Below are positions 39,577-55,217 of a DNA stretch of 64,000 nt, one piece after another. The notes below the pieces were generated by a model that worked only from the letters and a program-made list of their open reading frames with translations, was not told where the DNA came from and did no database searches. Source of the stretch: Streptococcus pneumoniae (GTDB lineage: Bacteria; Bacillota; Bacilli; Lactobacillales; Streptococcaceae). The stretch's first letter is position 1; each line of letters starts with the position of its first letter. Made by a program: the position numbers and the translations under genes. The stretch is from positions 1 through 64,000 of the forward strand of contig NZ_CRPU01000005.1 of NCBI RefSeq assembly GCF_001096185.1. Direction: 5' to 3'.

Positions 39577-39818
39577 ATACTCTTCGAAAATCTCTTTAAA
39601 CCGCGTCAACGTCGCCTTGCCGTAGGTATATGTTACTGACTTCGTCAGTCTTATCTACAACCTCAAAACAGTGTTTTGAGCTGACTTCGTCAGTTTCATC
39701 CGCAACCTCAAAACAGTGTTTTGAGCTGACTTAGTCAGTTCTATCTACAACCTCAAAGCAGTGCTTTAAGCAACCTGCGGCTAGTTTCCTAGTTTACTCT
39801 TTGATTTTCATTGAGTAT
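39577..39818 (+). repeat. BOX element with three boxB units (A-B-B-B-C)
   Basis: About 242 bp. The boxB unit, CTGACTT(C/A)GTCAGT to GTTTTGAG, repeats exactly every 45 bp, starting at 39636, 39681 and 39726. boxC is CAACCTGCGG to GAGTAT. Sits between sodA and holA. Confidence 0.9.
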
Positions 39819-45269: not shown

Positions 45270-45419
45270 ATACTCAATGAAAATTAAAGAGCAAACTAGG
45301 AAACTAGCCGCAGGTTGCTCAAAACACTGTTTTGAGGTTGCAGATAGAACTGACGAAGTCAGTAACATCTATACGGCAAGGCGACGTTGACGTGGTTTGA
45401 AGAGATTTTCGAAGAGTAT
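45270..45419 (-). repeat. BOX element (A-B-C), reverse orientation
   Basis: Starts ATACTCAATGAAAATTAAAG and ends TTCGAAGAGTAT, one boxB. Its boxA end is 7 bases from the stop of the gene upstream. Confidence 0.9.
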
Positions 45420-48667: not shown

Positions 48668-49927
48668 TGGTGGAATTAAGTGTGAGACGTTTGAGTTAGA
48701 AATGAGCTCTACTATGACAAAACATAAACACCTTACCCTTTCAGACCGTAATGATATCCAACTAGGCTTAGAGCGCGGTGAAACCTTCAAAGCTATCGGG
48801 CAACTTATTCTAAAAGACCCGACCACTGTTTCTAAAGAAGTCAAGCGAAACAAACAAGTCCGAGAGTCTACATGCCATAACTTTCCTTGCCCTCTACTCG
48901 ACAAAGCTCCCTTTGTCTGCAACGGCTGCCCTAAAAGAAGACAGAATTGTGGCTATAAGAAGATCTTCTACCTAGCTAAGCAAGCTCAAAAGCAGTACGA
49001 ACAAACTCTTGTTGAAGCTCGTGAAGGAACTCCTCTCAATTCCAAGACCTTCTGGGACATGGACAAAGTCATTTCTGATGGGGTTAAAAAGGGACAACAC
49101 ATCTATCATATCCTCAAAACTCACAATCTTGATGTCAGCTCCTCAACCGTCTATCGACACATCCGAAAAGGATACCTATCTATCGCTCCTATTGACCTAG
49201 CCAGAGCCGTTAAATTCAAAGAAAGAAGAAAAAGTAATCTCCCCTCCATTCCTAAAGAAGCTAAAAAAGGCCGTTCCTATGAGGATTTCCAAAACTATTT
49301 AGCACTGTATCAACTAGACTCTTGGCTAGAAATGGATACAGTTCTGGGTAGAATGGGAGGTAAAGTCCTACTCACCTTCAATCTCTCTTTCTGTAACTTT
49401 ATCTTCGCTAGACTGCTGGATAATAAAACTGCCCTTGAGGTTACCAAACACCTCTATGATATCAAGAACACTCTTCACCAAGCGGACAAAGATTTCTGTC
49501 AACTCTTTCCTGTCATCCTCACAGATAATGGTGGAGAGTTTGCCAGGGTCGATGATATCGAAATGGATGTTCGAGGAGAGAGTAAACTCTTCTTTTGTGA
49601 CCCTAATCGCTCTGACCAGAAAGGGAGAATTGAGAAAAATCACACGCTGATTCGCGACATTCTACCCAAAGGAACTTCTTTTGATAACTTAACTCAAGAG
49701 GATATCAATCTCGTCTGTTCGCATGTCAACAGTGTCAAACGGGCTGCTTTGAATGGAAAGTCAGCCTATGAACTTTTTGCCTTTACTTATGGAGAAGAGA
49801 TTCCTAAGCTTCTAGGTATTTCTAAAATACCTGCAGAAGACGTCTGTCAGTCGTCTAAATTACTCCAACATAAGTTCTAAAAATTAACCTTTAACCACAT
49901 TCAAACGTCTCACACTAACTTCCACCA
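48668..49927 (+). mobile_element. IS30-family insertion sequence
   Basis: About 1.26 kb. Terminal inverted repeats of 27 bp at 48668-48694 and 49901-49927 differ at 2 positions (core GTGTGAGACGTTTGA identical). TA flanks both ends and could be a 2-bp target duplication. It carries one transposase. Inserted between the ptsG promoter (102 bp away) and the ftsX region; no gene is visibly broken. Confidence 0.9.
48702..49880 (+). CDS. IS30-family transposase
   Basis: 392-residue DDE transposase, full length. N-terminal helix-turn-helix HLTLSDRNDIQLGLERG and second motif TTVSKEVKRN; zinc-like Cys cluster (CNGCPKRRQNC); catalytic Asp in LEMDTVLGRMGG, Asp in ILTDNGGEFA, Glu in RIEKNHTLIR. ATG 48714 is a second possible start. 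Intact, so the element may be active. Confidence 0.93.
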   Translation: MSSTMTKHKHLTLSDRNDIQLGLERGETFKAIGQLILKDPTTVSKEVKRNKQVRESTCHNFPCPLLDKAPFVCNGCPKRRQNCGYKKIFYLAKQAQKQYEQTLVEAREGTPLNSKTFWDMDKVISDGVKKGQHIYHILKTHNLDVSSSTVYRHIRKGYLSIAPIDLARAVKFKERRKSNLPSIPKEAKKGRSYEDFQNYLALYQLDSWLEMDTVLGRMGGKVLLTFNLSFCNFIFARLLDNKTALEVTKHLYDIKNTLHQADKDFCQLFPVILTDNGGEFARVDDIEMDVRGESKLFFCDPNRSDQKGRIEKNHTLIRDILPKGTSFDNLTQEDINLVCSHVNSVKRAALNGKSAYELFAFTYGEEIPKLLGISKIPAEDVCQSSKLLQHKF

Positions 49928-53271: not shown

Positions 53272-53928
53272 TTACAAGACTTTTGCTGAAGTGCGAGTGA
53301 TTTCTTCCACTTGAATACCATTTGCTTCAAATTTTTCTTTCAAGGCTGGTAAATCAATTGATCCATCGATTTGCACTTCGATAATGACCTTACCATCCTT
53401 ACGCGGAATATTGACTGTATGGGAGATATTCAAATTTTCTTCAACGATTAGAGAAACAATCTTACCAAGAACGCCAACTTCATCTTCTGTAACAAAGCGC
53501 ACACGAATTCCTTCTTCTCCATAACCAGCAATTTCAAGAAAGGCTTGGAAAACGTCACGGTCCGTAATAACTCCGTATACTTGATGATTATCTACGACAG
53601 GAAGAATACCAATCTTGTTTTTCAACATTAGATAAGTTGCATCCTCTAGACTCGCATAGCCTGAAACAGTGACAACATCGCGAATCATGACATCTTTTAC
53701 TTTTGTCTTATTTAGAAGATAATTCATCTCATAGATAGAAAGACTGGTTGCTTTGGATGGACTAGCTTGGGCAATGGTTCCCTCAGTTACCAAACCAACC
53801 AATTGATCATTTTCGATAACAGGCAAGCGGTGCAAGCCTTGCTCTCTCATCAAATCTGCTGCATGAGATACTGTTGTATCTGGACTAATATAAACTACCT
53901 TGCGGGTCATAAAATCTTTAACTGCCAT
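53272..53928 (-). CDS. CBS-pair plus ACT domain protein (AcuB-like)
   Basis: 218 residues: two CBS motifs (MTRKVVYISPDTTVSHAADL to about 60, KVKDVMIRDVVTV to about 130), then an ACT-like tail (VGVLGKIVSLIVEENLNISH). Such proteins sense adenosyl nucleotides and an amino acid. It lies below the liv operon, which would fit sensing of amino-acid state, but no target is known. Own promoter presumed in 53929-54035. Confidence 0.85.
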   Translation of the reverse strand: MAVKDFMTRKVVYISPDTTVSHAADLMREQGLHRLPVIENDQLVGLVTEGTIAQASPSKATSLSIYEMNYLLNKTKVKDVMIRDVVTVSGYASLEDATYLMLKNKIGILPVVDNHQVYGVITDRDVFQAFLEIAGYGEEGIRVRFVTEDEVGVLGKIVSLIVEENLNISHTVNIPRKDGKVIIEVQIDGSIDLPALKEKFEANGIQVEEITRTSAKVL

Positions 53929-54035
53929 GAGACTTCTCCTTTTCTATTCTTATCCCTATTATACAATCTTTTTGTAAATCTATCAAACGCTTACATTTCT
54001 TTTTTCAAAATTCAGAAAAGTATGAATAAGCTAGC

Positions 54036-54060
54036 AAAAAGAGCTCTATGATCGAGCTCT
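54036..54060 (-). terminator. Terminator of the liv operon
   Basis: AGAGCTC (54040-54046) and GAGCTCT (54054-54060), then T5. A second hairpin (54063-54088, GAATGAAAG/CTTTCATTC) precedes it in the transcript. It places the 54132-54510 array inside the liv 3' UTR. Confidence 0.7.
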
Positions 54061-54131
54061 GTGAATGAAAGAAAGATACCTTTCATTCGATGTTTTCAAT
54101 TATCAGAAATTAAACTTTCAATGTAGATGCA

Positions 54132-54510
54132 GATTGCTTCGCAATCTCTATCCACCGACTAAAAAGGTCCCTCGGACTATATTGATGATTACTTCGCAAT
54201 CTCTATCTGCCGACTAAAACAATCCAGTGGATAAGATAATTGCTTCGCAATCTCCATCTGCCGACTAAAAAGGTCCCCCGGACTATAATGATGATTACTT
54301 CGTAATCTTCATCTGCAACCTAAACTAGTCTCCCAGACTATGCGAAGATTGCTTACGCAATCTTCATCCACCGACTAAAAAGGTCCCTCGGACTATATTG
54401 ATGATTACTTCGTAATCTTCATCTGCAACCTAAACTAGTCTCCCAGACTATGCGAAGATTGCTTCGCAATCTTCATCTGCCGACTAAAACAATCCACTGG
54501 ATTGTTTTAG
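54132..54510 (-). repeat. Seven-unit array of paired hairpins in the liv 3' UTR
   Basis: Units start at 54132, 54187, 54238, 54293, 54347, 54403 and 54457 (period 51-56 bp). Each holds a first hairpin ATTGC-TTC-GCAAT or ATTAC-TTC-GTAAT, a linker (A/T)C(T/C)GCCGACTAAA, and a second hairpin of one of three kinds: GGTCC/GGACT, TAGTCT/AGACTA, ATCC/GGAT. Stems stay paired while bases differ. Units 4-5 and 6-7 form a 110-bp higher-order repeat. Unit 7's second stem (12 bp) contains the livF stop. Not a BOX, RUP or CRISPR. Confidence 0.8.
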
Positions 54511-55217
54511 CCACCTAGATATGCTTTTCTGACTTCTTCTGATGAGGCGAGTTCTTTTCCTGTTCCGGATAGGACGATTTTTCCTGTTTCCAGTACATAT
54601 CCTCGATCAGAGATTGCGAGTGCTTTATTAGCGTTTTGTTCAATCAAGAGGACGGTTGTTCCTTGCTTCTGGATATCTTGAATGATATCAAAAATTTCTT
54701 GGATAAAGATTGGTGCAAGTCCCATTGATGGTTCATCTAAAAGAAGAAGTTTTGGTGTTGACATGAGGGCGCGTCCCATGGCAAGCATTTGTTGTTCCCC
54801 CCCTGAAAGAGTGGCTGCATCTTGGTTCTTGCGTTCTTCAAGACGTGGAAAGCGTGAGAAAACCTTCTTCAAGTTAGCTTGATTTTCTTCACGGTTTTTC
54901 TTCAAGAAAGCACCCATTTCAAGATTTTCCATAACAGTCAAACCAGGAAAAACGTGGCGTCCTTCTGGAACTTGTGAAAGCCCACCAGCTACGATTTTTT
55001 GAGCTGGCATTTTTTGGATTTCTTGACCTAAAAATTCAATCTTTCCTGAACTTGGTCGAACCAAACCAGACAAGGTACGGAGAATGGTTGTCTTACCTGC
55101 ACCATTGGCACCGATAAGGGAAACAACTTCTCCTTCATTCACTTCAAAGCTTACATCACGGACTGCTTGAATCATACCGTAATGCACAGAAAGATTATCA
55201 ACTTTTAACATAGACAT
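54507..55217 (-). CDS. livF: Branched-chain amino acid ABC transporter ATPase LivF
   Basis: 236 residues: GANGAGKTT, LSGGEQQMLAMGRAL, LLLDEPSMGLAP. One of two ATPases of the Leu/Ile/Val importer. It starts within the last base of livG. GGAGGTGAAG is the ribosome site. Its stop codon lies in the stem of the first 3' hairpin. Confidence 0.95.
   Translation of the reverse strand: MSMLKVDNLSVHYGMIQAVRDVSFEVNEGEVVSLIGANGAGKTTILRTLSGLVRPSSGKIEFLGQEIQKMPAQKIVAGGLSQVPEGRHVFPGLTVMENLEMGAFLKKNREENQANLKKVFSRFPRLEERKNQDAATLSGGEQQMLAMGRALMSTPKLLLLDEPSMGLAPIFIQEIFDIIQDIQKQGTTVLLIEQNANKALAISDRGYVLETGKIVLSGTGKELASSEEVRKAYLGG

Follow-up and report, generated by a model that had tools for sequence, protein, structure and literature searches.

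At the 3' end of livF in Streptococcus pneumoniae, a tandem array of boxB-like modules overlaps the end of the gene, whose stop codon lies within a 12 bp hairpin formed by the first module. This hairpin is kept at the end of livF in many Streptococcus species with its two arms changing in step, which suggests that it has some role where the message ends. With a probability of about one half, we propose that a BOX-type repeat consisting of boxB-like modules only has settled at the end of livF and acts there as a terminator-like, exonuclease-resistant 3' end. The first-pass annotation of this DNA contained neither the stop-codon hairpin as the key hairpin nor its occurrence at the same place in many species, nor the similar arrangement at other genes.

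The features referred to below were located in the window, that is, the whole analysed stretch of 64,000 nucleotides; R1 denotes the covariance model built from the seven units, and the minus strand is the livF sense.

54507..55217, minus strand: livF, branched-chain amino acid ABC transporter ATPase (open reading frame; best NCBIfam model LivF, below cut-off; Pfam ABC_tran)
54484..54510, minus strand: stop-codon hairpin CTAAAACAATCC-AGT-GGATTGTTTTAG, 12 bp (perfect inverted repeat and pattern match)
54451..54510, minus strand: unit 7, nearest livF (repeat search and unit cutting; 76.3 bits with R1)
54397..54450, minus strand: unit 6 (unit cutting, R1)
54341..54396, minus strand: unit 5 (unit cutting, R1)
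54287..54340, minus strand: unit 4 (unit cutting, R1)
54232..54286, minus strand: unit 3 (unit cutting, R1)
54181..54231, minus strand: unit 2 (unit cutting, R1)
54126..54180, minus strand: unit 1, farthest from livF (unit cutting, R1)
54246..54464, minus strand: two-unit block of ~110 bp, present twice (54246-54354 and 54356-54464; 109 nt, 95% identity)
54040..54060, minus strand: match to an intrinsic terminator, AGAGCTC...GAGCTCT followed by TTTT, where the liv transcript probably ends (consensus match only)
53958..53986, minus strand: sigma-70-like promoter match TTGATA-17-TATAAT ahead of the downstream gene (consensus match)
53272..53928, minus strand: next gene downstream (open reading frame)

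The repeat-family search placed the seven two-hairpin units at 54126-54510 of the minus strand, running from the livF stop towards the operon terminator, in agreement with the first-pass annotation, whose 110-bp repeat of units 4-5 and 6-7 was recovered as well. As cut, six of the seven units are 51-56 nt long. The stem of unit 7 does include the livF stop, as had been noticed: the palindrome spans 54485-54509, or 54484-54510 once the closing C-G is included, and holds the stop TAA (54507-54509) together with the last base of the last codon. The span given in the first-pass annotation stretches from the operon terminator up to this hairpin. Read in the mRNA sense, a unit consists of hairpin 1, a linker and hairpin 2, a plus-strand reading reversing the hairpin names. 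Hairpin 1 occurs in three forms, with the 3' arms GGACC, GGATTG and AGACTAG, and has a shortened 5' arm in the interior units; the linker is GTCGG or GGTTG followed by (C/T)(A/G)GAT, and the loops of hairpin 2 are mostly G-N-A or G-N-N-A.

A terminator scan of both strands returned two terminator-like sites against 1.1 expected; the sole minus-strand match (54060-54040) is located beyond the array, and the livF stop hairpin was not flagged. The promoter match at 53958-53986 is weak, since 3 promoter-like matches were found and 3.0 were expected in shuffles. The downstream gene gave no NCBIfam match at 1e-20, and its product is presumably a CBS-domain protein. No Rfam family reached its gathering score in the window, and among ten related loci searched at E<=0.1 there was one sRNA match (L264, 170-236), distant from the palindrome at ~1500. 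Outside the array, R1 matched the window at 45320-45369 on the minus strand, which is a BOX element (L099), and more weakly at 39629, 32185, 20317 and 50249; an ORF at 48702-49880 resembles, by eye, an IS30-type transposase.

It had been claimed that both arms change together where units differ. Over the seven units, 92.8% of cells are paired against 87.1% in shuffled alignments (0/500 as high), 7 cells carry double changes against 2.3 (0/500; 0-2 in slid structures), and the covariation score is 0.274 against 0.156 (0/500). The number of pairs with both sides changed is marginal (4 vs 2.0; 27/500) and that of further pair types gives no signal (5 vs 6.1; 469/500), so that three of the five measures put covariation over the seven units above both the shuffles and the slid structures. 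Some changes are uncompensated: two positions of hairpin 2 (the first hairpin on the plus strand) are each unpaired in one of the seven units, and in hairpin 1 (the second plus-strand stem) the outer pair is unpaired in three of six. The claim stands for most measures, qualified by these changes and by the two weaker scores. Among 106 distinct units from relatives, 90.5% of cells are paired (83.9% shuffled) and 119 carry double changes (35.9 shuffled, 0-36 slid), with no excess of further pair types (17 vs 17.6; 463/500). Selection on structure, as proposed in the first-pass annotation, is thus backed by strong paired changes across species.

In the source genome (G000) R1 found the liv array once, and a DNA similarity search returned the array itself only. 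Across the genus, R1 matched 157 of 197 genomes at E<=0.001 (28 candidates scored per genome), and livF itself was located in 191 of the 197. Best loci were retrieved from 29 other genomes, and in all 29 the match adjoined livF; in two genomes (G042, G175) matches near 51 bits lie far from livF. Outside Streptococcus, a match was present in 9 of 51 genomes of the family, belonging to 2 of 9 other genera. Of 61 loci, 60 had R1 matches, 1 to 5 in each, and the window has 7 units, a variable number of tandem boxB-like modules being a BOX trait. Free variation in copy number with no conserved pairing, which had been named as evidence against a structural reading, is not what was found, because pairing is kept while copy number differs between species.

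For the livF stop itself, 120 livF 3' sides were sampled, from 61 other listed genomes of at least 97% identity and 59 more distant, hand-picked ones; 130 liv 3' regions were used altogether, with four identical pairs, one of them within the 120. The stop lies inside a near-perfect palindrome of 11-12 bp in 84 of the 120 genomes (61/61 close, 23/59 distant), and this distribution of the array makes a BOX-related function testable at one defined place. The 84 genomes hold 23 distinct versions, the stems differing wholesale between species. A recount under a similar rule gave 72 fully Watson-Crick hairpins, 11 that contain a wobble and 3 that contain a mismatch. A strict test of 86 rows (the window and 85 of the 120), grouped on their initial 10 bases, found at least 10 of 11 Watson-Crick pairs in 83. 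Two loci (L241, L247) have 12 bp hairpins with 4-nt loops. One locus, L219, carries a chimera of two stem types, the only mispaired livF stop hairpin among the species with arrays.

The stop codon and its partner are TAA/TTA in 79 rows, TGA/TCA in 4 and other combinations in 4; the 87 rows include the window as well as L245 and L248, both doubtful ordinary terminators. The wobble base that ends the last livF codon has as its partner the base just after the palindrome, and in the same number of rows (n=87) this pair is C-G in 74, T-A in 9, T-G in 1, A-T in 1 and unpaired in 2 (Fisher p 1.9e-10, relatedness ignored). In tree-aware tests 4.9 of 6 pairs agree for the last-codon base and none are opposite (median p 0.0625), and 3 of 3 agree for the stop codon (p 0.25). 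These tests lean the expected way and are too small for significance. At livF, the identity of the stop codon appears to follow its hairpin partner in the 3' UTR.

Twelve Watson-Crick pairs are formed by the stop hairpin in 40 of 47 rows, the remaining 7 having a U.G beside the loop, whereas interior hairpin 1 has a mean of 4.0 pairs and a maximum of 7 (n=73). The contrast of a full stop hairpin with short interior ones points to a constraint that is linked with the stop codon. The position of the livF stop shows no shift across the 130 regions, and 76 of 85 stop hairpins fit a simple terminator-like rule, though the scan did not pick out the one in the window. Presence and absence of the hairpin require 6 changes on the tree; the hairpin is dispensable, because 36 of the 59 more distant species are without a paired one (the mispaired L219 counted).

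Palindromes of this kind are located at the stop codons of other housekeeping genes as well. The pattern TRAANNNNTCYNNNRGANNNNTTYA occurs at 7 places in the source genome, against 0 for the reversed pattern, and at 416 places (52 genomes) against 37 in 59 genomes of the genus, with up to 66 per genome. Among 56 sampled loci (7 from the source genome, 29 and 20 from others), 25 palindromes begin precisely at the stop of an ORF at least 80 aa long and 31 do not. In oriented tests this amounts to 25 of 112, compared with 21 of 1195 for the local background, the binomial p of 1.8e-20 being overstated because orthologous genes recur. Family searches identified the genes as those of DUF1292, Hsp70 (dnaK), NAD synthase (nadE), RpoD, SufB, phosphoglycerate mutase, FabM and a glycogen phosphorylase family member, and of a CshA-like helicase with a family match below the cut-off. 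At DUF1292 the stop hairpin is present in 21 of the best 30 of 59 genomes (one mismatched) in many versions, one of them with TGA, and the protein ends in NSFMEE in 30 of 30 loci; two loci (L318, L328) retain the units and have lost the stop hairpin. Fixed presence at dnaK was ruled out, the hairpin being found in 6 of the best 30 of 59 genomes.

Several of these loci were inspected by eye. The source genome has a second stop-anchored array (L103/L263; contig 1, ~288800-289152) between the DUF1292 gene and a folC-like gene, with about eight units whose second stems vary and pair within each unit. A two-unit stop-anchored array follows nadE in L268 (1500-1620), each hairpin 2 having its own stem of 7-8 bp. 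Tandem units TGAAAAAGTC..GACTTTTTCA with CTGAGCCAAGAAATTCGAAAGCGAAG are present in L266 (1240-1525, minus strand), where tandem G.A pairs apparently form part of the second stem.

The identity of the array as boxB-like BOX modules is well supported, and the earlier idea of a mobile hairpin family is borne out by the likeness of the unit to boxB. At E<=0.1, R1 matched at least 39 further weak sites in the source genome (150 of 487 candidates scored); of the 23 that were read, 19 carry the boxB motif and 4 do not, and three of the 19 hold a stretch one base off the BOX-PCR primer. Conversely, a profile of 21 boxB sequences scored at least 5 bits at 39 places in the 130 liv 3' regions against 4 in 650 shuffled ones, in the expected orientation at 38 of the 39, single matches being weak (best 11.6 bits). 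Genome-wide interspersion, a further BOX trait, is absent, liv-type units lying at one site in the source genome; some other genomes do have related units at scattered positions. A search of the 130 liv 3' regions, up to 900 nt, with one L093 copy each of boxA and boxC found no flank belonging to the array. The sole boxA/boxC match was in L152, where a separate BOX element (boxC end) starts at the liv terminator, ~300-341 after the livF stop.

In Croucher 2011 (PMC3049150), BOX repeats are described as encoding the stop codons of 36 pneumococcal genes and as co-transcribed as 3' extensions of operons; protection from exonucleases is suggested, and cited work indicates that boxB can reduce downstream expression in an orientation-dependent manner. 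Stop codons encoded by BOX are thus already known from that account. Beyond these BOX stop codons, nothing on a stop-codon hairpin at livF was found in the literature covered, subscription papers lying outside its scope.

Taken as a terminator-like, exonuclease-resistant 3' end, the array would most probably work as follows. In the module beside livF, hairpin 1 is extended to 11-12 bp and includes the stop codon; once the last ribosome leaves, this hairpin, with U residues in its 3' arm, would fold, and the tandem hairpins behind it would both back up termination and hold off 3'-5' exonucleases. The outcome would be a liv mRNA with a defined, stable 3' end ahead of the terminator at 54060-54040. 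In E. coli, ribosomes repress terminators that lie within just a few bp of the end of a gene (PMC4824070), and thus the first hairpin may be translation-gated with the later units as back-ups. Counted against the proposal are this ribosomal repression, the failure of the scan to flag the stop hairpin, its dispensability and the losses in L318 and L328.

The strand on which the structure acts was approached through folding and loops. The array folds better than shuffles in the mRNA sense (z -8.6) and on the other strand (z -10.4); since both strands fold well, the choice of strand by folding energy was ruled out. Of 170 aligned units, 141 gave a hairpin 2 and 29 none. Its loops are G..A in 88 of the 141 (43 of 72 distinct) and T..C in 1, so that one strand, the mRNA sense strand, is favoured; 53 have loops other than G..A, the main ones being AAA (15) and TTG (10). 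In G-N-N-A loops the third position holds R 24 times and Y 30 times, hence there is no GNRA preference, and GNA and GNNA are the loops of extraordinarily stable DNA mini-hairpins (PMC4686876). Loops and energies cannot tell RNA from single-stranded DNA, and these loops are what might be expected if selection acted on the folded coding strand of livF, for instance as a putative transposase substrate, in recombination or in template switching. This is nevertheless improbable: the favoured strand is also that of the mRNA, 24 loops do fit GNRA, 53 of 141 units have other loops and 29 of 170 no hairpin, and no candidate enzyme was identified. Less probable still is a regulatory RNA, a protein or small-RNA sponge, or a leucine-responsive control of liv, to which the repetition of similar units and the location in a transporter operon would lend themselves; the same arrangement is shown by unrelated genes, copy number and stem sequence differ between species, and the window lacks an Rfam family at gathering score. 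No support was found for the sponge role raised in the first-pass annotation.

The main rival, and a serious one, combines template-switch correction with survival of the stop codon. In quasipalindrome correction, replication slips at a hairpin and one arm is copied from the other. A functionless parasitic repeat, whose BOX-like modules reached livF once or a few times, could keep its palindrome in this way; a single correction would replace the 5' arm along with the stop codon, and only products ending in a stop would survive. We regard this as possible, if rather unlikely. It accounts for differences that are whole-arm instead of single paired changes, for the mispaired chimera L219, as expected of an intermediate, for the abundance of like palindromes in single genomes and for the patchiness at dnaK, and Croucher 2011 regards BOX as probable parasites (PMC3049150). 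It also fits a stem turnover nearly unlinked to the livF tree, with at least 35 changes of stem type among 86 rows against a shuffled mean of 40.7 (range 36-46), on a tree built on only 297 nt of livF and with a number that exchange of arrays between species would raise. However, the interior hairpins, which would be equally exposed to correction, stay short; protein ends stay constant at livF and DUF1292 while the stems turn over; and palindromes placed exactly on stops far exceed the background.

The reading of the array as a terminator-like 3' end can be widened, tentatively and with considerable doubt, to the whole genus. Stop-codon modules, each a stop hairpin with tandem two-hairpin units, may swap whole at housekeeping genes, carrying TAA or TGA and the last wobble base with them, and may provide 3' ends that are gated by translation; the best-known species of the genus, the pneumococcus, is without Rho (PMC6212727). 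Pneumococcal BOX would then be one branch.

Compared with pneumococcal boxB as described in PMC3049150, the livF array has the same tandem two-hairpin modules, the linker AGGTTG(C/T)(A/G)GAT and, in the copies of its own genome, the CGAAG-type second loop, and like BOX it encodes the stop codon of the preceding gene. Unlike pneumococcal BOX, it is without boxA and boxC, its units are 51-56 instead of ~45 nt long, the stems differ among modules, and one locus is common to many species; in 2011 BOX was described there as nearly confined to S. pneumoniae, S. mitis and S. suis. The BOX-type elements of S. suis, in the same description, involve RepSU1, boxA/C, and boxE/F with boxB and boxD (PMC3049150); an S. 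suis record (L008) has units at livF. As in intrinsic (Rho-independent) terminators, the livF stop hairpin has an A-rich 5' arm, a short G+C core and a U-rich 3' arm, but it overlaps the stop codon and is followed by tandem units and then a separate terminator-like site. The REP/BIME repeats of enterobacteria are likewise clustered palindromes in 3' regions.
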